A stretch of DNA of 30,785 nt from a virus. Below, in pieces: positions 1 through 29,746 of the stretch. The notes beneath the pieces were generated by a model. The model had not been told where the DNA came from, did no database searches, and worked only from the letters and a program-made list of their open reading frames with translations. The first letter of the stretch is position 1. Every line of letters starts with the position of its first letter. The DNA lies in IMG/VR virus record IMGVR_UViG_3300025711_000255, positions 1 to 30,785 of that record; one strand, given 5' to 3'. The position numbers were made by a program, and so were the translations under genes.

Positions 1-831
1 ATGGATAGAAAAATCCCTCAGCATTTACTTTCAGTCGTTGCAGATCACGTATCGTCAGTCGAAACCCATGCGAGTTTGAATAGCCTTTTTTTTTATGCAG
101 ACGCCCCAGGGGATGCACCTGACGGGTCGAAGCAGGTCAAAGCTCTTGAGTGGCTAAGAAGAATTAATAAAGAGTGTGCGGATCCGCTGTCTACACTCGG
201 TAAATTAATCGAGGGTTATATGGAAGCTGACACTCCCCAACCGACACCATCGCCATTTAATAAATTTTTTGATGTCAAAGACGAACCAACATTTAAAGAT
301 GTCGTTAATAAGGCATTAGGAAAATATGGTCTATCGTATGTAAATGGTGGTTTTATTACAGCCGGTGGCTCTAAACCATCTATCTCATTGCAAGAAGCAA
401 TACACGGAAGAGATATGCCTGCAATCGAACGCGAGTTTGATCGGGCAATGGAACATATCCATAAAGAACCCAAAGAATCCGTTTCAGCGGCATGCAATAT
501 AGTTGAATCAGTTTGTAAAATTTATATTGCTGATGAAGGTTTATCAATGCCAGCAAAACAAGATCTTCAAAGTGTCTGGAAGGTAGTGAAAGAGGATTTG
601 GGTATGAATCCTCAGACAATTGAAGACAACGACCTTCGTAAAATTTTAACTGGGCTTTTCTCAATTGTTGATGGTCTCGGTGCTTTTCGTACTCATGCCA
701 GTACTGCGCACGGTGCAGGTAGAAAGTCATATAAAGTTCTACCACGTCATGCACGTCTAGCTATTAATTCCGCTCATAGCCTAGTTCTATATATCCTTGA
801 AACTTGGGATGATCGAAAGAAGAAAAATTAA
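1..831 (+). CDS. Abortive-infection protein with C-terminal HEPN-like (Abi_C) domain
   Basis: A 276-residue protein. The C-terminal half, about residues 144-268, resembles the Abi_C abortive-infection domain. It includes helices around residues 159-176 and the motif GAFRTHASTAHGAG, in which R230 and H237 form the Rx6H pattern typical of HEPN ribonucleases. The N-terminal half has no fold I recognise beyond a YVNGGFI-type turn near residues 113-119. Related proteins kill or arrest phage-infected cells, by inference through RNA cleavage. The gene starts at the first base of the window, so its promoter cannot be judged. It converges on the reverse transcriptase gene and the two stop codons overlap (828-831), which leaves no room for a terminator. 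It could be the toxic effector of the neighbouring RT system or an independent defence gene. Confidence 0.8.
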   Translation: MDRKIPQHLLSVVADHVSSVETHASLNSLFFYADAPGDAPDGSKQVKALEWLRRINKECADPLSTLGKLIEGYMEADTPQPTPSPFNKFFDVKDEPTFKDVVNKALGKYGLSYVNGGFITAGGSKPSISLQEAIHGRDMPAIEREFDRAMEHIHKEPKESVSAACNIVESVCKIYIADEGLSMPAKQDLQSVWKVVKEDLGMNPQTIEDNDLRKILTGLFSIVDGLGAFRTHASTAHGAGRKSYKVLPRHARLAINSAHSLVLYILETWDDRKKKN

Positions 832-1598
832 TCTTTTCTTGGAAAATGTAAAAGTGCTTGGTTCGAGTTAACAGATCGAACATAAGCGGCTATGCCCTCA
901 CACTCGTGTTCATTTTCAGATTGTGCATACGCTTGAATAAACTGCACCATTCTTTCAGGTGCAACCCTAAGATGGTGGTGAGATAACTCAAGATTAAAGA
1001 CTGCCAATTGCTTTGATGGTCGCTGAGTTTTATTTTTATTAATTTTATATTTTGACTTCTCAAGCGCGATACAAAATAAATCAAAAGATTCAGTAATACT
1101 ATTCAAGTTATTACTTGAAAAAATTATATCATCCATATAAACCGATACTAAAACATCGCCCCTTTTGATTATTAAATCAAGCGCTCGACCTGCAAATGAA
1201 TTATTAAGGCATAGTGAAGCTAAAATTGGTGACTGAGGGTAACCATATGGTATTGAAAATTTCTTTTCTTTTCGATTAGCTAATCTAACAGTTGAGGCCT
1301 TAGCAATTAGTCTGGCTTTTTCGTATGGAATAATTGTTTTTAATTCTCTTGTCACTCGACTTTGTGAGGTAGATTCAAAAAAGTTACTTATATCAACTAG
1401 TGAGAAATATTCATTTTCAATATGAATTCTTGCAGATGAAACATGACCTCCATTCTTTAAGTGATAAAAATAATCTGGAGACTTCCATTTACTTCTAAGA
1501 ATTTTATTCAGCTTTTTTCCAAAAATGGACATTTCCTTAGTAGGAACATGTACCCATCTATCCTTTTTTACTTCGAATTTATGTTTCCACATTTCCAT
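828..1598 (-). CDS. Small reverse transcriptase, retron-like or defence RT
   Basis: A 256-residue RNA-directed DNA polymerase. Motif A is SLVDISNFFES with D69. Motif B is IPYGYPQSPILASL at about 117-129, the RT PQS signature. Motif C is VSVYMDDIIFSS with D156 and D157. A following stretch, KYKINKNKTQRPSKQLAVF, fits motif D, so the catalytic triad is intact. SARIH at 56-60 sits where retron RTs carry NAxxH. The C-terminus has VFN where retrons have VTG. The protein is shorter than usual retron RTs (about 300 or more residues) and YMDD is not the common retron YADD. The class is therefore uncertain: a divergent retron, or one of the unknown-group defence RTs. No good ribosome-binding site precedes the ATG, and a 56-codon ORF overlaps the start, so translational coupling is possible. 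Base composition is much more AT-rich than the phage structural genes, consistent with imported cargo. Confidence 0.88.
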   Translation of the reverse strand: MEMWKHKFEVKKDRWVHVPTKEMSIFGKKLNKILRSKWKSPDYFYHLKNGGHVSSARIHIENEYFSLVDISNFFESTSQSRVTRELKTIIPYEKARLIAKASTVRLANRKEKKFSIPYGYPQSPILASLCLNNSFAGRALDLIIKRGDVLVSVYMDDIIFSSNNLNSITESFDLFCIALEKSKYKINKNKTQRPSKQLAVFNLELSHHHLRVAPERMVQFIQAYAQSENEHECEGIAAYVRSVNSNQALLHFPRKD

Positions 1599-1749
1599 TA
1601 CGATTACAAAATCCGTTTAAACGGTAGTGTAGGACTACGTGAAGAAGGCTATAAAAGTTCACAATGAAATCATTAAGCTCATTGAGACTTTCAATGATTG
1701 CTTTCACAATCAGAACCTTCCCCACTAAGCCAAGAGTGTTATTAGACAT
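1579..1749 (-). CDS. Possible 56-residue protein between the structured RNA and the RT
   Basis: An open frame starts at ATG 1749, runs 56 codons, and stops 20 bases inside the RT gene (TAA at 1581-1579). The product is helical in character. Its hydrophobic and amphipathic core from residue 7 to 41 includes GLVGKVLIVKAIIESLNELN and FIVNFYSLLHVVLHY. Only a weak purine run (AGAGAGAAC) precedes the ATG. It lies directly after the 3' arm of the structured RNA and overlaps the RT start, as a translationally coupled partner would. I recognise no family. It may be a chance ORF, although 56 codons without a stop in AT-rich DNA is uncommon. Confidence 0.4.
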   Translation of the reverse strand: MSNNTLGLVGKVLIVKAIIESLNELNDFIVNFYSLLHVVLHYRLNGFCNRNGNVET

Positions 1750-1766
1750 TCTTGTTCTCTCTATAC

Positions 1767-1967
1767 ATTCCTGACGTTTCTTAGCGCAAGCGCATAGCCT
1801 AAACTAAATAACCCGGAGACCCCTTAAGAGGCCATCCGCAACCTTCGGCAACTTCGAGTGACGCTACGCCGCGTAACGCAGCGTAAAGCGACGAAAAGTA
1901 GCCTTACGGCAACCGTAATACGGCGAGTGTACAGAGAGGCCAGGTCTCCCCGGCTAACGTCAGGAAT
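1767..1967 (-). ncRNA. Candidate retron-like msr-msd or defence-RT template RNA
   Basis: Reading the minus strand towards the RT, the element opens with ATTCCTGACGTT (1967-1956). It closes with the exact reverse complement AACGTCAGGAAT (1778-1767), a perfect 12-bp terminal stem. Directly after the 5' arm comes TTAGCC; retron msr RNAs carry TTAGC with the branching guanosine at this place. Inside are a second nested pair, GGAGACC with GGTCTCC (1949-1943 and 1821-1815); a hairpin TTACGG-TTG-CCGTAA (1918-1904); and a branched stem pairing 1890-1881 with 1869-1862 around GCG-TTA-CGC. An 8-base direct repeat (AGAGGCCA on the plus strand) occurs at 1827-1834 and 1935-1942. No open frame fills the region, and it looks richer in GC than the flanking RT gene. 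The strand is inferred from its position upstream of the RT. Confidence 0.65.
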
Positions 1968-1995
1968 TAAAGAATACACCTAGAGAATGATTTTA

Positions 1996-20490: not shown

Positions 20491-22275
20491 ATGGCAAAAT
20501 ACAGTGAAGAATTACGCGGCGTTGCGCGCGCCCTGTATTTAAGGCGATACACGCCAAAGGAAATCGCCAGTGAATTAAATCTGCCAAACGCGCGGATTAT
20601 TTACTATTGGGCTGAAAAAGAAGGCTGGGCCAACATGCTCAGCCATGAAAGTACAGAGGACGCGATTGAGCGCCGCATCCAGCTGCTGACCAAACGCGAC
20701 GGCAAAACAGAGCTTGAGCTGAAAGAACTGGAACAGCTGATCACGCACTCGGTGAAACTGCGCGCGCAGCAGAACAAGCACAAAGAGAAGATGGCCGCCG
20801 CGCGGCCTGATACATCCGGCGACGGCGGAAACTATGCCAATAACGAAGGCAGCGACACGCCACGCGGCAAGCGCAAGTACAACAAAAACGATATTTCCGG
20901 GCTTAGCGCTGACGATCTCAACGTTTGGGCTGAAGAACACCTGTTTGGCTACCAGATGCATCTGCGCATCAACATTGGCCAGCAGGTGCGCAACATCCTT
21001 AAAAGCCGCCAGATAGGCGCGACCTGGTATTTTGCGTTTGAGGCGTTTGAAAATGCCGTGCTGACTGGCGATCCGCAGATTTTCTTATCCGCATCGCGCG
21101 CGCAGGCGGAGGTGTTCCGCTCTTACATCGTGAACATTGCCCAGGAATATTTCGGCATCACGCTGACCGGCAACCCTATCCGCCTGAGTAACGGCGCGGA
21201 GCTGCGTTTCCTTTCCACCAACAAAAATACCGCGCAGTCATACAGCGGCCACCTGTATTGCGACGAATATTTCTGGGTACCGAATTTCGCCAGGCTTAAC
21301 GAAGTCGCATCGGCAATGGCCACGCACGACAAATGGCGCACCACCTACTTTTCCACGCCGTCTGCCAAAACGCATCAGGCCTACCCGTTCTGGACGGGCG
21401 AAGAATGGAAGCGCGGCAGCAAGAAGCGCGACGCCGTTGATTTTCCCACGTTCGATGCGATGCGCGACGGCGGCCGCCTGTGTGCCGATGGCCAGTGGCG
21501 CTACGTCATCACGATGGAAGACGCGATTGCCGGTGGCTTCAATCTGGCCAGCATTGAAAAGCTGCGCAACCGCTACAGCAAAGACACCTTCAACATGCTC
21601 TATATGTGCGTGTTCGTGGACAGCAAAGATGCGGTTTTCAGCTTTTCCGACCTGGAGAAGTGCGCCACTGACGTGTCGCTCTGGCAGGATCACGACCCGA
21701 AAGCGCGCCGCCCGTTTGGCGAACGTCCGGTATGGGGCGGCTACGACCCGGCACGCTCCGGCGACCTGTCCACGTTTGTGATTCTGGCGCCGCCGGTGCT
21801 GGCCGGTGAAAAATTCCGCGTGCTGGCGATCATCAACTGGCGGGGCATGAACTTTCGCCATCAGGCGAGCGAAATCAAAAAGCTGTTTAGCCGCTACAAC
21901 TTCACTTATCTCGGCGTTGACGTGACCGGCATTGGCCAGGGTGTTTACGACAACATCCACCCCTTTGCCATGCGCGTGCTGAAACCCATTCGCTACGACC
22001 TGAACACAAAAAATCGTCTGGTGCTGAAAGCCGTGGACGTGGTGGAAAGTGGTCGCATCGAATGGGATCAGGAACTGAAGGAGGTTCCGGCCTCGTTTAT
22101 GTCTATCCGACGCGCCGTGACGAAAGCAGGCGGCGCGGTGACCTTTGTTGCTGACCGTACAGCGGAAACCGGCCACGCCGAAGCCGCCTGGGCGATTATG
22201 CACGGATTAGACAATGAGCCGCTTAACTACGAACACAAACCAACATCCAAATGGAAGTTTCAGAAGGCAGCATGA
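20491..22275 (+). CDS. P: Terminase large subunit (gpP), ATPase and nuclease
   Basis: 594 residues. A small HTH-like segment at 17-40 (YTPKEIASELNLPNARIIYY) is followed by the ATPase with Walker-A-like SRQIGATW (172-179) and Walker B LYCDE (255-259). The C-terminal nuclease domain has acidic residues in GGYDPARSGDLSTFV and FTYLGVDVTGIGQG. It packages DNA and cuts cos. AAAGGA precedes the ATG. Its stop overlaps the portal ATG (ATGA). Confidence 0.95.
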   Translation: MAKYSEELRGVARALYLRRYTPKEIASELNLPNARIIYYWAEKEGWANMLSHESTEDAIERRIQLLTKRDGKTELELKELEQLITHSVKLRAQQNKHKEKMAAARPDTSGDGGNYANNEGSDTPRGKRKYNKNDISGLSADDLNVWAEEHLFGYQMHLRINIGQQVRNILKSRQIGATWYFAFEAFENAVLTGDPQIFLSASRAQAEVFRSYIVNIAQEYFGITLTGNPIRLSNGAELRFLSTNKNTAQSYSGHLYCDEYFWVPNFARLNEVASAMATHDKWRTTYFSTPSAKTHQAYPFWTGEEWKRGSKKRDAVDFPTFDAMRDGGRLCADGQWRYVITMEDAIAGGFNLASIEKLRNRYSKDTFNMLYMCVFVDSKDAVFSFSDLEKCATDVSLWQDHDPKARRPFGERPVWGGYDPARSGDLSTFVILAPPVLAGEKFRVLAIINWRGMNFRHQASEIKKLFSRYNFTYLGVDVTGIGQGVYDNIHPFAMRVLKPIRYDLNTKNRLVLKAVDVVESGRIEWDQELKEVPASFMSIRRAVTKAGGAVTFVADRTAETGHAEAAWAIMHGLDNEPLNYEHKPTSKWKFQKAA

Positions 22276-23303
22276 AAAAACGATATAAGCAACGCGCCAG
22301 CGGCGCACAGCAGGAAGCAGGCAAGCGCAAAATGTCGGTGCTGCGCTTCGGCAAACCTGAACCCGTTCTGACCACCGGCACCGATTATCGCGACGTCTGG
22401 TACGACAACGACTACGACCACTACAGCCTGCCCATTGACCGGCTGGCGCTGGCGCAGCTGATTAACCTCAATGGCCAGCACGGCGGCATCCTTCACGCAC
22501 GCAAAAACATGGTGTTGTCGAATTACCTCGGCGGCGGCCTGTCGCATGACAACCTTGAAGCCGGTGCAATGGATTTTCTGACGTTCGGCGATCTGGCCAT
22601 CGTGAAAATTCGCAATGGCTGGGGCGACGTGATCGCGCTCGAACCCATGCCGGGCCTGTACATGCGCCGCCGTCGCAGCGGGGAATTTGTCGTCTTACAG
22701 CAGGGTGAGCCGCTGGTTTATGAAGAAGAAGACGTAATTTTTATCAAGATGTATGACCCGCAGCAGCAAATTTACGGCCTGCCGGACTACATCGGCGGCA
22801 TTCACTCCGCCCTGCTTAACAGCGAAGCGGTGATTTTTCGCCGTCGCTACTACCACAACGGCGCGCACACCGGCGGAATTCTCTATACCACTGACCCGAA
22901 CATGACCGACGAGGTCGAGGAAGAAATTGAGGCGCAGCTGGCCAACAGCAAAGGGATCGGTAACTTCAGCACTATTCTGGTGAATATCCCCGGCGGCGAT
23001 AAGGAAGGCGTGCAGTTCATTCAGATGGGTGACATTGGCGCGAAGGATGAATTTGCCAACGTGAAAAATATTAGTGCGCAGGACGTTCTTAACGCTCACC
23101 GCTTCCCTGCCGGACTGGCTGGCATCATCCCGCAAAACGCTGGCGGTCTCGGCGACCCGGAGAAGATTGAAGCGACCTATAAGAAAAACGAAGTGTTACC
23201 GTTGCAGCGACGCCTGATGCAGGCGGTCAACGGTGATCCGGACGTGCCGGAACACCTGTACCTAAAATTTGACCAAGAATCAACGAACAAGGATGCGGTG
23301 TAA
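22272..23303 (+). CDS. Q: Portal protein (gpQ)
   Basis: 343 residues from ATG 22272, which overlaps the terminase stop (ATGA) and has AAGG upstream. The family pattern is clear: NDYDHYSLPIDRLALAQLIN, HARKNMVLSNYLGGGLS, YEEEDVIFIKMYDPQQQIYG and PAGLAGIIPQNAGGLGDPEK. Twelve copies form the portal ring through which DNA enters and leaves. It ends immediately before the late activator gene. Confidence 0.95.
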   Translation: MKKRYKQRASGAQQEAGKRKMSVLRFGKPEPVLTTGTDYRDVWYDNDYDHYSLPIDRLALAQLINLNGQHGGILHARKNMVLSNYLGGGLSHDNLEAGAMDFLTFGDLAIVKIRNGWGDVIALEPMPGLYMRRRRSGEFVVLQQGEPLVYEEEDVIFIKMYDPQQQIYGLPDYIGGIHSALLNSEAVIFRRRYYHNGAHTGGILYTTDPNMTDEVEEEIEAQLANSKGIGNFSTILVNIPGGDKEGVQFIQMGDIGAKDEFANVKNISAQDVLNAHRFPAGLAGIIPQNAGGLGDPEKIEATYKKNEVLPLQRRLMQAVNGDPDVPEHLYLKFDQESTNKDAV

Positions 23304-23353
23304 TGCTAAAACGTATAAAATCCAGGCATAACTTTCATGCCGGAGCCGCAAAT

Positions 23354-23614
23354 ATGCGCGTGTTAAAAATTGAGTGCCCAGAGTGCGGTTCTAAAGCTGT
23401 TATCCGTAAAACCAACCGTAAACATCGTGATATCGCTGACATCTATTGTGCCTGCGCAGACGTTGAGTGTGGTCATACTTTTGTTATGAACCTTACTTTT
23501 TCCCACACTATCAGCCCTAGCGCCAAAACCGGCGACTTGCTAATTCAGCAGGTGATTAGCGGCATGTCAGACGCTCAAAAGCAGCTAACACTTAAGCTAC
23601 TCCAGGCCTCTTAA
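23354..23614 (+). CDS. ogr: Ogr/Delta-type zinc-finger late activator
   Basis: 86 residues from ATG 23354 (MRVLKIECPECGSKAVIRKT), with GGAG 8 bases upstream. An alternative ATG at 23303 overlaps the portal stop (TAATG), has AAGGA upstream and would add 17 residues. CPEC and CACADVECGH give the Cys-rich zinc site of the Ogr/Delta family, and AVIRKTNRKHRDIAD is the conserved stretch between. Ogr proteins bind upstream of late promoters and contact RNA polymerase alpha. Here the gene is cotranscribed with terminase and portal, giving positive feedback. Its stop overlaps that of the facing SOS-type gene. Confidence 0.88.
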   Translation: MRVLKIECPECGSKAVIRKTNRKHRDIADIYCACADVECGHTFVMNLTFSHTISPSAKTGDLLIQQVISGMSDAQKQLTLKLLQAS

Positions 23615-23808
23615 TTTGATCGCCCCTCGTCAGTAGGGGCTGTTATTCTTGCCTCGCTTTTCATATCACTAAGCAAATCTTCAGTCAGTTCGCCCAACCA
23701 TTCGTCTAATAATGCTCTGCGCTCTCCCTGAGCTTGTGAAAAAATCAGCAATTTAACAATAAAATCAATCCGTTCAACTTTTACTATCTGACCTAGCGAA
23801 GCAGACAT
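23611..23808 (-). CDS. LexA-controlled 65-residue protein, candidate antirepressor
   Basis: 65 residues (MSASLGQIVKVERIDFIVKL, then LIFSQAQGERRALLDEWLGE and LTEDLLSDMKSEARI). The start is fixed by GGAGG five bases before the ATG, and a perfect LexA box lies 24 bases further up. The protein is small, acidic-helical and not DinI or full-length Tum. I recognise no family. It is a separate SOS-driven unit beside ogr. Because the CI repressor here resembles that of 186, which is inactivated by the SOS-induced Tum protein and not by self-cleavage, an antirepressor role is the simplest hypothesis. Confidence 0.75.
   Translation of the reverse strand: MSASLGQIVKVERIDFIVKLLIFSQAQGERRALLDEWLGELTEDLLSDMKSEARITAPTDEGRSN
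23621..23650 (+). terminator. Terminator after the portal-ogr unit
   Basis: GCCCCT (23622-23627), a 7-base loop and AGGGGC (23635-23640) are followed by TGTTATTCTT. It lies just past the ogr stop, inside the 3' end of the facing small gene. Confidence 0.6.
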
Positions 23809-23831
23809 TTACACCTCCCTTACGCAAAACA

Positions 23832-23860
23832 CTGTATACGCATACAGTATAATATCTCTT
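23832..23860 (-). promoter_or_regulatory. LexA box and promoter of the 65-residue gene
   Basis: CTGTATACGCATACAG (23832-23847) is an exact CTGT-N8-ACAG and a full palindrome except for its centre. A minus-strand TATACT, a good -10, begins at 23853 and overlaps the box edge, so LexA should block initiation. Confidence 0.88.
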
Positions 23861-23919: not shown

Positions 23920-25962
23920 TTAGCCTGACGACCAACCCGGCCAGCATTCAAATTCGTTGAGATCAACAACGTCTATTAACCGCTCCGCTTGGTATTTCAC
24001 GGTGCCATGCCCTCTAAATGAGATGCCGCTCCCCTTAAGCAACAGTGAAATTTCCTCCTCACTCCCCTCAAACCCTCTCGCTTTTAGTTCCAGCTCTAAC
24101 CGTCGGCGCTCCGGCCCCGTACAGTTATTGACAGAACTCCAAGGGGCGGCGATGCCGCCAGAAAAACCAGCCTCCGCTGGCGCTTCGGCCAATTTAGCGA
24201 CCTTTTCCCACTTAACCAGACGCGTATAAAATTCAGAATTAGGCACGCGAGGAGAATAGATACCGCTGACGCGTTGTACGTCCTCAGCGTATTCATTACC
24301 CATTTCAGTGAGTTCATAGCAAAGACGGATCAGCAAATCTTCGCGAGCGACCAGCGGCCCACCCTGGAGCATGGTGTAAGACGCCCAGCAGCTTGCAACG
24401 GATGCCGCAGCCAGTGCCGCATCCATTTTTGTGTCGGGAAGCCTTGTTTCCCCGAGCCGACGCAGTTCACGCCAGACAGTGACCGGCGCACCTCCAATTT
24501 GCTGGAACTGACGAATGCGCCAGCGTGAAGCCCACGCAGAAACGGCTTTTGCCATTTCACGCATGTTTTCGCCGGTCTCATCGTCTTTCTCGCCTTCCAG
24601 CGCAAAGCCGTCGATATTTTTTGAGATGTATTTAGCGATATAGCCTGTAGCACTGCCTTTTTCGGGATCAATGGCTTCAACGTGGAAGCGCGCTTTACGC
24701 GATTCGTCTGTGTTCATCTCGTGCGCATCTTCTTCGCGAGCGTAACGCGCCATGATGTCGCACACCCGCTGTACGTTTTCAGGCAGCATAAACAGCAGCA
24801 TGTGCCAGTGTGGCGTCCCATCATGGTGCGGTTCTACAACACGGAAGCCAAAAACGTGAATGCCTTCACGGGACAGTGCAGCGCGGATTTTTGACCAAAC
24901 TTTGCAGAGGTAACGCTGGGTGTCTTTCGGGCTTGAGCCATTCCATTGCGTGACAAAGCCACCTTTGCTGTAAACCGCATGAAACCTGGATGGCGCAGTC
25001 ATTGTAAAAAACTGCCCGACGCAGCCTGTTTCCTCTGCCACATCCTCAAAGCCGCGCATTCGGGTCATCAGCTCCCGGCGGCGTATCGCGGGATTTGCAT
25101 TACTCCGGCTGACCATTTCATCCAGCGCGATACGATCACCGGTTTCTTTATTTATCAGGTCGTGACGCTTGAAAAATTCTCGGTTTCTTTTCTTCTGCTC
25201 AACCCATTCCGCCAGCGTACCGCGCGAGACGTAAGCGGAGGCTGCTTTCTGCACTTGCCCCACTGCGATGGCCATGTGTTCACGTTGCAGATCGCGCATT
25301 TGCTTCAGTCTGCCCCGCCACCATTCTGGTGCCATCATGCGAAGCAGGCCAGACTGCGCTTTACGCATTTCAAGCACGCATTTACCGGACTGATATTCAG
25401 TCCAGTAAGGCGGGATAGTGCCGGTTAATGCGGATAGCTCAGCGATAAAGCGATAGGCAATCAGCATGATTGCCGCTTCTTCGGTATCGTCTGGCAGGGA
25501 AATAGCGGAGGTAAAATCAGCCAGGCTTTGCGCCATAAACACGCCAACCTTATAGGCAAGATCGCGGATGCTCTGCCTGTCCAGCGTGGCCAGTTTTTCC
25601 AGCTGCTTAATGAACGGTAGTTCATGCGCAGCGGTGGCCGGAAGGCTGTAGCGATATTTGACAAGTTGCAGGCGTGGCAATACGTTCTGGCCAATAGTTT
25701 TACGCAGAAACGCATTGGCACGACGACGACCTTCATTACCTGCCAGCAATTTTTGGTAGCGGTCACCAAAATAGCCAGCCAGATAGTCTGGCATGTCATG
25801 CAGGTACTGGCTACGCCAGTTATGGTCTTCGGGGTTTGCATTCCAGAGACGACGCTCTGAAAGGGACATGTCAGCCGGTGCAGACATGCCAAAAAAATCA
25901 CGCCGCTGTTGATTGACGGCGTGATATTCACCTTGCAGCAGATCAGCACAGTGCTCAGACAT
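23920..25962 (-). CDS. A: Replication initiator A (HUH endonuclease, rolling circle)
   Basis: 680 residues of the phage GPA family. Visible motifs are motif I GQFFTMTAPSRFH (about 316-328), the metal-binding HUH-like PHHDGTPHWHMLLF with H385 and H387, and the tyrosine motif GYIAKYISKN with Y441 and Y445, matching the two active tyrosines (450 and 454) of P2 A. It nicks one strand at the origin, stays covalently bound and drives rolling-circle replication. The P2 origin lies within its A gene; I could not locate the nick site here. The ATG overlaps the previous gene by 8 bases. Confidence 0.95.
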   Translation of the reverse strand: MSEHCADLLQGEYHAVNQQRRDFFGMSAPADMSLSERRLWNANPEDHNWRSQYLHDMPDYLAGYFGDRYQKLLAGNEGRRRANAFLRKTIGQNVLPRLQLVKYRYSLPATAAHELPFIKQLEKLATLDRQSIRDLAYKVGVFMAQSLADFTSAISLPDDTEEAAIMLIAYRFIAELSALTGTIPPYWTEYQSGKCVLEMRKAQSGLLRMMAPEWWRGRLKQMRDLQREHMAIAVGQVQKAASAYVSRGTLAEWVEQKKRNREFFKRHDLINKETGDRIALDEMVSRSNANPAIRRRELMTRMRGFEDVAEETGCVGQFFTMTAPSRFHAVYSKGGFVTQWNGSSPKDTQRYLCKVWSKIRAALSREGIHVFGFRVVEPHHDGTPHWHMLLFMLPENVQRVCDIMARYAREEDAHEMNTDESRKARFHVEAIDPEKGSATGYIAKYISKNIDGFALEGEKDDETGENMREMAKAVSAWASRWRIRQFQQIGGAPVTVWRELRRLGETRLPDTKMDAALAAASVASCWASYTMLQGGPLVAREDLLIRLCYELTEMGNEYAEDVQRVSGIYSPRVPNSEFYTRLVKWEKVAKLAEAPAEAGFSGGIAAPWSSVNNCTGPERRRLELELKARGFEGSEEEISLLLKGSGISFRGHGTVKYQAERLIDVVDLNEFECWPGWSSG

Positions 25963-28251: not shown

Positions 28252-28758
28252 TCACGCAACGATGCCGGGCATTGAGGCGCTGACCACATCAACAGCAGCG
28301 GCAAGTACCGGCATGGTTTGGAAACGACTCTCAACGGAATAGACGAGTAAAGACAGACTGCGAATTGCATCGCTTGCCTTGTCCAGAATCTGATTGCGGC
28401 GCGCAACGGTCATCTTCTCCGTTGAAACCGCTTCACCGGCGATGGCACCAACACTGGCCACTGCGGTTAATGCACAAAACTGCATGTTTTCGGGTTTAAC
28501 ATTGTTCACTGGCACAGAAGGCTGGCAATTAATCTGGCGCAGCATGCCGTCCAAAATGGTTGCATCTTCGGTGTGGTCAGTGATTGCAAGCAGCTCAATC
28601 AGCGTTAACTGGTGTGACTGCTCAGGGTTCAGCTTGTTGCGGAGAGTTGCAGGCTGCATCCCTACTGCTTTGGCCACATCAGTGATGTTGTGCGCCAGCG
28701 TAAAGGCCCGGCAAGCATCATCAAGATAATTGCGTACAGAAACTTTGTAATCGTACAT
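28252..28758 (-). CDS. cII: CII-type regulatory protein (CP76 family)
   Basis: 168 residues from ATG 28758; a GTG at 28767 would add three. YDYKVSVRNYLDDACRAFTL, the HTH-like DVAKAVGMQPATLRNKLNPE and SHQLTLIELLAITDHT match the CP76 (186 CII) family. In 186, CII is a transcription activator that helps establish lysogeny by turning on CI synthesis. It follows the Cox-like gene in the early operon, the same order as apl-cII in 186. Confidence 0.88.
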   Translation of the reverse strand: MYDYKVSVRNYLDDACRAFTLAHNITDVAKAVGMQPATLRNKLNPEQSHQLTLIELLAITDHTEDATILDGMLRQINCQPSVPVNNVKPENMQFCALTAVASVGAIAGEAVSTEKMTVARRNQILDKASDAIRSLSLLVYSVESRFQTMPVLAAAVDVVSASMPGIVA

Positions 28759-28788
28759 GTTTCGCACTCTACGAATTGATAGCCTTAA

Positions 28789-29010
28789 TTACGCATTAAG
28801 CGAAACATGGCATTCGCTCAATGCCATTACGGTTAAAGCGGCCATATTCACCTCAACAAGCCCCTTTTTTTGGGCACCTTTGGGCTTGATTGGTAACTTC
28901 CCGTATGAAATCAGGTTCTCAGCAGTGCTTTTAGACATGCCTGTGCGGCGGCAGTACTCTTCTAGCGGGATGTAGGGATCGGGTATCACGATTGTAATGT
29001 TGGGTCGCAT
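28789..29010 (-). CDS. cox: Cox/Apl-type excisionase and early regulator
   Basis: 73 residues from ATG 29010, with AAGGAG 8 bases upstream; the frame continues upstream but without a site. DPYIPLEEYCRRTGMSKSTA followed by ENLISYGKLPIKPKG is a winged-helix excisionase reading head typical of Cox/Apl. Such proteins bend DNA at attP to drive excision and repress the lysogenic promoter. It is the first gene of the leftward early operon, as in P2 and 186. Confidence 0.88.
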   Translation of the reverse strand: MRPNITIVIPDPYIPLEEYCRRTGMSKSTAENLISYGKLPIKPKGAQKKGLVEVNMAALTVMALSECHVSLNA

Positions 29011-29038
29011 AATGCAAACTCCTTCGTTTATCGAAAGT

Positions 29039-29066
29039 GCCAATATCCATCAATATTGGCCAATAT
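29039..29066. promoter_or_regulatory. Operator cluster of GCCAATAT half-sites
   Basis: GCCAATAT (29039-29046), its complement ATATTGGC (29053-29060) and another GCCAATAT (29059-29066) give a perfect 8-bp inverted repeat with a 6-base spacer, followed by the perfect palindrome ATATTGGCCAATAT. They lie between the early promoter and cox. Probable binding sites for CI or the Cox protein. Confidence 0.7.
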
Positions 29067-29164: not shown

Positions 29165-29746
29165 ATGAGCAAATTTCAAGTAGACATGGACACTGATAGC
29201 GCTCCAATTCTCGACAGAGTTTTAGAGGCATACGGGTTCAGCCAAAAAATCATGCTTGCAGAGCACTTAGGTATGGCGTCTAGCAGCCTCGCTGGTCGCT
29301 ATAGACGTGGGGGTTTTCCTGCTGACATTGTCGTTAGATGCGTTGCCGATACGGGGATTAATCTTGAATGGTTAGCGACAGGTAAGGGACGTAAATACGA
29401 CGATCAACAACTGGATGCATCAACCATAGCTCGCAAAAAGTTGATTGACGGCCAGCTCTTCGATGCTGGCTATATTATGATTGACAAAACAATGATATTG
29501 GCACCAAAAACAGAACCACTTCGCCCCGTTCTAATTGTTGACGAACAATCTCAGTATTTGATTGAAATGGGATTCACAGAGGTTTACGACGGCGAATGGC
29601 TTGTTGAGATCGAAGGTAAAATCAGCATTAGAACATTAACGCGCATACCCATTAAGAAAGTTCGCGTTAGCGGTGTAGGAATGGCTTTCGATTGTGGTCT
29701 TGATGATATATCTGTATTAGGCCGCGTAACCCTGACGATTAGATAA
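29165..29746 (+). CDS. cI: CI-type lysogeny repressor (186 family)
   Basis: 193 residues, almost the length of 186 CI. The N-terminal HTH (VLEAYGFSQKIMLAEHLGMA, SSSLAGRYRRGGFP) and CVADTGINLEWLATGKG match the phage CI repressor family. The C-terminal domain (KVRVSGVGMAFDCGLDDISV) is the oligomerisation type and shows no Ser-Lys protease motif of LexA/lambda CI. It should keep the early promoter off. Because it is not self-cleaving, SOS induction needs an antirepressor. The stop is 1 base from the integrase ATG, so both are cotranscribed. Confidence 0.9.
   Translation: MSKFQVDMDTDSAPILDRVLEAYGFSQKIMLAEHLGMASSSLAGRYRRGGFPADIVVRCVADTGINLEWLATGKGRKYDDQQLDASTIARKKLIDGQLFDAGYIMIDKTMILAPKTEPLRPVLIVDEQSQYLIEMGFTEVYDGEWLVEIEGKISIRTLTRIPIKKVRVSGVGMAFDCGLDDISVLGRVTLTIR

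Follow-up and report, generated by a model that had tools for sequence, protein, structure and literature searches.

A probable TumA antirepressor gene lacking a DinI partner, beside ogr in a virus with a 186-type CI repressor

Known Tum systems and the locus studied here

Among the closest described systems, the Tum protein of phage 186 is a LexA-controlled product of 146 aa, in which the N-terminal half is joined to a DinI domain at the C-terminal end. By binding its repressor, Tum keeps it away from the operators (PMC3121763). The two parts, tumA and tumB, are fused in 186 and lie side by side in PSP3 and Fels-2. In PSP3, the annotation of the small separate tumA gene behind a LexA box reads “similar to 5' end 186 tum; UV induction of prophage,” and the antirepressor activity resides in this upstream tum gene according to a personal communication cited in PMC3121763. 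The Fels-2 tumA–dinI region has one near match in E. coli HS, in a P2-like prophage which is taken to be DuoHS. DuoHS lysogens carrying delta-tum or lexA(Ind-) are not induced (PMC12055606), the deleted tum locus being unnamed in the main text of that study. GfoA and GftA of Gifsy, compared here by description, are likewise small LexA-controlled antirepressors which act in trans and whose repressors are not RecA-cleavable (PMC3121763); however, their target is a repressor resembling the lambda CI N-terminal part, of a different kind from the 186-type CI.

The locus considered here belongs to a window of 30,785 nucleotides, the whole of the IMG/VR virus record IMGVR_UViG_3300025711_000255, which represents a 186/P2-like phage. 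It contains a 65-codon open reading frame (ORF) which is best explained as tumA, the antirepressor module of a Tum system without its usual DinI partner, whose product would be made during the SOS response, bind CI, and induce the prophage. The probability of this reading is estimated at about 0.85, and the present analysis brings to it the homology, the LexA box, the co-occurrence with CI, and the absence of DinI detailed below.

The tumA gene and its signals

The features at and around the gene are as follows.

23611–23808, minus strand: tumA homologue, 65 aa (ORF with ATG, phrog_698 match at E 9e-7, family alignment, AF2 model)
23812–23819, minus strand: ribosome-binding site GGGAGGTG (from the sequence, GGGAGG being kept in relatives)
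23830–23849, minus strand: LexA box TACTGTATGCGTATACAGTG, with a 5' end 41 bases ahead of the tumA ATG, at the same place in 17 relatives
23303–23614, plus strand: ogr late activator, convergent with tumA (Ogr_Delta, 1.6e-19)
23622–23640, plus strand: GC-rich hairpin downstream of ogr, inside the last tumA codons (APxxEGRS tail), present in 11/11 compared loci
23920–25962, minus strand: replication gene A, preceding tumA, an order shared with 186, Fels-2, and PSP3 (Phage_GPA, 1.7e-106, and synteny)

A sequence-only reading of this DNA had pointed to a small gene of 65 residues, to its excellent ribosome-binding site, and to its location beside ogr, all of which are borne out: the minus-strand ORF runs from an ATG at 23808 to 23611, GGGAGGTG precedes it, and tumA and ogr overlap tail to tail by 4 bases. 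The ORF is a real gene, as judged from its homologues in 17 loci, where the intact ORF, the ribosome-binding site, and the LexA box are all kept, from purifying selection (median dN/dS about 0.11, an approximate value since many dS are saturated), and from a confident predicted fold. The AF2 model (pLDDT 88.9) is a helical hairpin, with helices 5–23 and 28–56. Comparison of this hairpin with BFVD and PDB structures gave nothing significant, as expected for a two-helix fold. The GC-rich hairpin lying within the end of the gene is possibly the ogr terminator. Within 22251–23614, the ogr gene itself directly follows the portal gene Q, whereas it comes after the tail gene D in 186 and PSP3.

The LexA box had been called perfect, which holds for its CTGT-N8-ACAG core (23832–23847) and for its inner arms, CTGTAT and ATACAG; the full 20-mer matches the E. 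coli consensus at 16/20 positions. The bare core pattern is found twice in the window where 0.36 would be expected, and 6 of 100 shuffled sequences reach this count, so the pattern is not significant by itself. The tumA box stands above chance because it is conserved: it starts 40–42 bases ahead of the start codon in 17/17 closest relatives, and a LexA box is also found upstream of tum in Fels-2, SopEPhi, PSP3, and 186. A predicted LexA-controlled promoter thus lies directly upstream of tumA, as in the Tum/TumA family.

A divergent member of the TumA family

The ORF had been described as showing no similarity to Tum and as perhaps founding a new antirepressor family. A homology search with the 65 residues shows otherwise. 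Among the PHROGs profiles, the window protein matches phrog_698 (E 9e-7), a family that also contains Fels-2 TumA (STM2728, 6e-38) and that 186 Tum matches with its N-terminal half (2.4e-5, positions 7–44 on 7–44). The same half of Tum matches phrog_8554 (1.4e-11) and phrog_1993 (1e-22), the latter including PSP3 TumA, and all three matches are colinear and gap-free. The function of phrog_698 is listed as unknown in PHROGs. No match to the window protein was obtained with Pfam, NCBIfam, or PADLOC, and PDB sequence searches with TumA returned nothing significant.

The link between the window protein and 186 Tum runs through the Fels-2-type and PHROG profiles, because pairwise BLASTP to 186 Tum gave no match from either the window protein or Fels-2 TumA, and because the window-type profile by itself gives a weak score with 186 Tum, which 2 of 1000 shuffles equal. 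The window-type and Fels-2-type profiles match each other at E 2.6e-11, and the joint profile matches the 186 Tum N-terminus with P 3.5e-4 (single comparison), above all 1000 column shuffles. PSP3 TumA gave no direct profile match with the window family; like the window gene, it is a separate small gene preceded by a LexA box, but it is followed by tumB, and its annotation refers to UV induction. The order gene A, LexA box, tumA is common to the window, Fels-2, SopEPhi, PSP3, and 186. These profile matches place the window protein in the known TumA family, as a divergent branch that lacks DinI.

Among its closest described counterparts, Fels-2 TumA and the near copy in the E. coli HS prophage share with it the phrog_698 assignment, the place after gene A, the LexA box, and a 186-type CI. 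The window protein and Fels-2 TumA have about 27% identity; the latter is followed by the DinI-like TumB and does not overlap ogr, whereas the window gene overlaps ogr and has no DinI neighbor. 186 Tum is likewise LexA-controlled and associated with a 186-type CI, and its N-terminal 45 residues or so match the same profiles. Its AF2 model is weak (pLDDT 57), with helices 7–22 and 28–48 ahead of the DinI fold, in the same order as in the window protein.

Loss of the DinI half

The lack of similarity to DinI noted earlier was correct. No DinI match was found for the window protein, which is not a member of the DinI family (PF06183), and no DinI gene was found in the window with PF06183 or with our own DinI profile. 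With a DinI domain neither C-terminal nor adjacent, the locus has neither the fused arrangement of 186 Tum nor the TumA plus TumB arrangement. A DinI gene is lacking at 17/17 window-type loci. At the 88 Fels-2-type loci, one lies downstream in 61 and none in 27, these counts referring to retrieved loci, with a sampling that leans toward the best matches, and not to frequencies. Loci that have lost DinI thus keep the antirepressor half.

Remnants of dinI are still seen behind tumA in three Fels-2-type loci (L203, L207, and L210), as would be expected if the window gene were itself a decayed, non-working remnant of a tum operon after loss of the DinI half. This is hardly credible given the dN/dS of about 0.11 and the conservation, in 17 loci, of an unbroken reading frame with its ribosome-binding site and its LexA box. 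Phage genes under LexA control code for DinI homologues but also for other functions, and the protein could be an SOS-induced accessory factor, for example a modulator of RecA or of cell division, rather than a switch. Such a role is very unlikely: the protein matches neither DinI nor any other named family, its homology is to the half of Tum that acts as antirepressor, and the window has no DinI-like gene and just one further LexA-box-like site, which lies in its accessory left end.

The CI repressor and the proposed mechanism

The lysogeny region of the window includes three further genes.

29165–29746, plus strand: 186-type CI repressor, the presumed target of TumA (PF07022 and PF16452; PDB 2FJR)
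28789–29043, minus strand: Apl/Cox-like regulator, divergent from CI (phrog_575, 2.3e-29)
28252–28767, minus strand: CII (Phage_CP76, 2.8e-45)

The window CI was rightly read as being of the non-cleavable 186 type: it matches PF16452 (1.8e-30) and the 186 CI structure (PDB 2FJR, 4.9e-37), and no LexA-like protease domain was found in it by domain search. Co-occurrence of the homologues with such a repressor, which had been proposed as a check, is also observed. PF16452 is present in 12/15 window-type records, the three others ending 1.6–3.8 kb upstream of tumA. CI is found in 20 of the 22 loci with more than 6.6 kb of sequence upstream of tumA, and the two exceptions are disrupted prophages of Fels-2 type, where ORF reading indicates an apparent Mu-like element in one (L031) and host genes in the other (L037). 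The 186-type CI therefore accompanies tumA wherever the upstream sequence suffices, except in these two disrupted prophages.

In the proposed mechanism, LexA bound to its box would keep tumA off in the lysogen. Upon DNA damage, activated RecA would trigger the self-cleavage of LexA, and the 65-residue helical-hairpin protein would be made. TumA would then bind the non-cleavable CI and keep it off its operators, the lytic promoter would fire, and the prophage would be induced. CI binding and antirepression by the window protein are attributed to it by homology with its relatives. The Tum-like induction switch suggested from the sequence is thus likely right as a mechanism, given the LexA box, the 186-type CI, and the homology to Tum; its novelty as a family is not retained.

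Divergence of TumA and of CI

A distance-matrix test for coevolution of TumA with CI gave no correlation inside the subfamilies: r is 0.05–0.11 within each of them, for both CI domains. TumA distances instead track those of CII and of the replication and portal genes (r 0.44–0.95). The divergence of TumA is thus unlinked to that of CI, unlike what a dedicated CI binder might show, which counts against the preferred explanation.

These data could mean that TumA causes induction by acting on something other than CI, such as CII or a host factor on which lysogeny depends. TumA distances correlate with CII at r 0.77 within the Fels-2 type and 0.71 within the window type, and the partial correlation with CII is 0.41 within the Fels-2 type; moreover, an identical TumA can be found with CI proteins of 31% identity. 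However, the replication and portal genes show this correlation as well, and controlling for them abolishes the one with CII in the window type, so that it was set aside as a sign of another target. The CII of 186 acts at the establishment of lysogeny and not at its maintenance, and exchange of CI genes between phages would break the correlation whatever TumA binds. In 186, CI is bound by Tum and thereby kept from its operators (PMC3121763). A non-CI target is considered improbable, although somewhat less so than an accessory role.

Exchange of CI is indeed suggested by individual loci. TumA is identical (62/62 residues) in three of them (L029, L235, and L261), and the CI of L261, which reads like 186 CI, is only 31% identical to those of the other two, as if immunity had been exchanged while the antirepressor stayed constant. 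Between Fels-2 and the E. coli HS prophage, identity is 97% in TumA, 100% in TumB, and 48% in CI. The conserved CI residues lie partly in the DNA-binding domain and partly near the C-terminus, the latter ones being G-x-W-L ... F-x-C-x-x-D-D-I. With CI exchanged and TumA constant, TumA most likely recognizes a conserved feature of the CI fold, not one immunity type. Loss of inducibility in some phages that pair a constant TumA with a differing CI is another possible outcome. TumA as CI antirepressor might even have a broad range: the near-invariant small protein would disarm CI repressors from several immunity groups, with identities as low as about 31%, co-resident heteroimmune prophages would also be released upon SOS, and the DinI half would be dispensable. 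This extension is tentatively held, at slightly less than even odds.

Implications for related phages

The family has no Pfam or NCBIfam model and is of unknown function in PHROGs, which leaves many phages without a named induction switch; phrog_698 can provisionally be labeled TumA. The DinI-less phages split two activities that are fused in 186 Tum, and their putative 65-residue antirepressor is a convenient subject for structural studies. Given the uncoupling of TumA from CI, it can be asked whether one antirepressor opens several immunities, a question that bears on the joint induction of co-resident prophages. If TumA does have a broad range, SOS induction of one 186-like prophage would release the heteroimmune ones residing with it.

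Other features of the window and of its relatives

The left end of the window carries, within 1996–2345 on the minus strand, the second LexA-like box, TACTGTATATAATAACAGTA (2326–2345), which matches 17/20 consensus positions. In the same interval it is directly followed by a 101-aa ORF (phrog_17759, function unknown). This ORF leads into a retron-like unit (828–1985, minus strand), and the arrangement is possibly SOS-controlled. In this unit, a reverse transcriptase (RVT_1 5.5e-17; PADLOC RT_VI 3.2e-25; St85-like 1.2e-20, below cut-off) lies behind a strongly structured RNA at about 1760–1985, with complementary end arms (z -3.5). The protein encoded at 1–831 (plus strand) carries an Abi_C domain (8.5e-20) and is classed by PADLOC as AbiJ-like (6e-17). 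Of the relatives retrieved, a 30.8-kb circular “plasmid” of Pantoea dispersa (L001, NZ_CP109855.1) looks like a whole phage relative, with int, CI, capsid, and tail genes.
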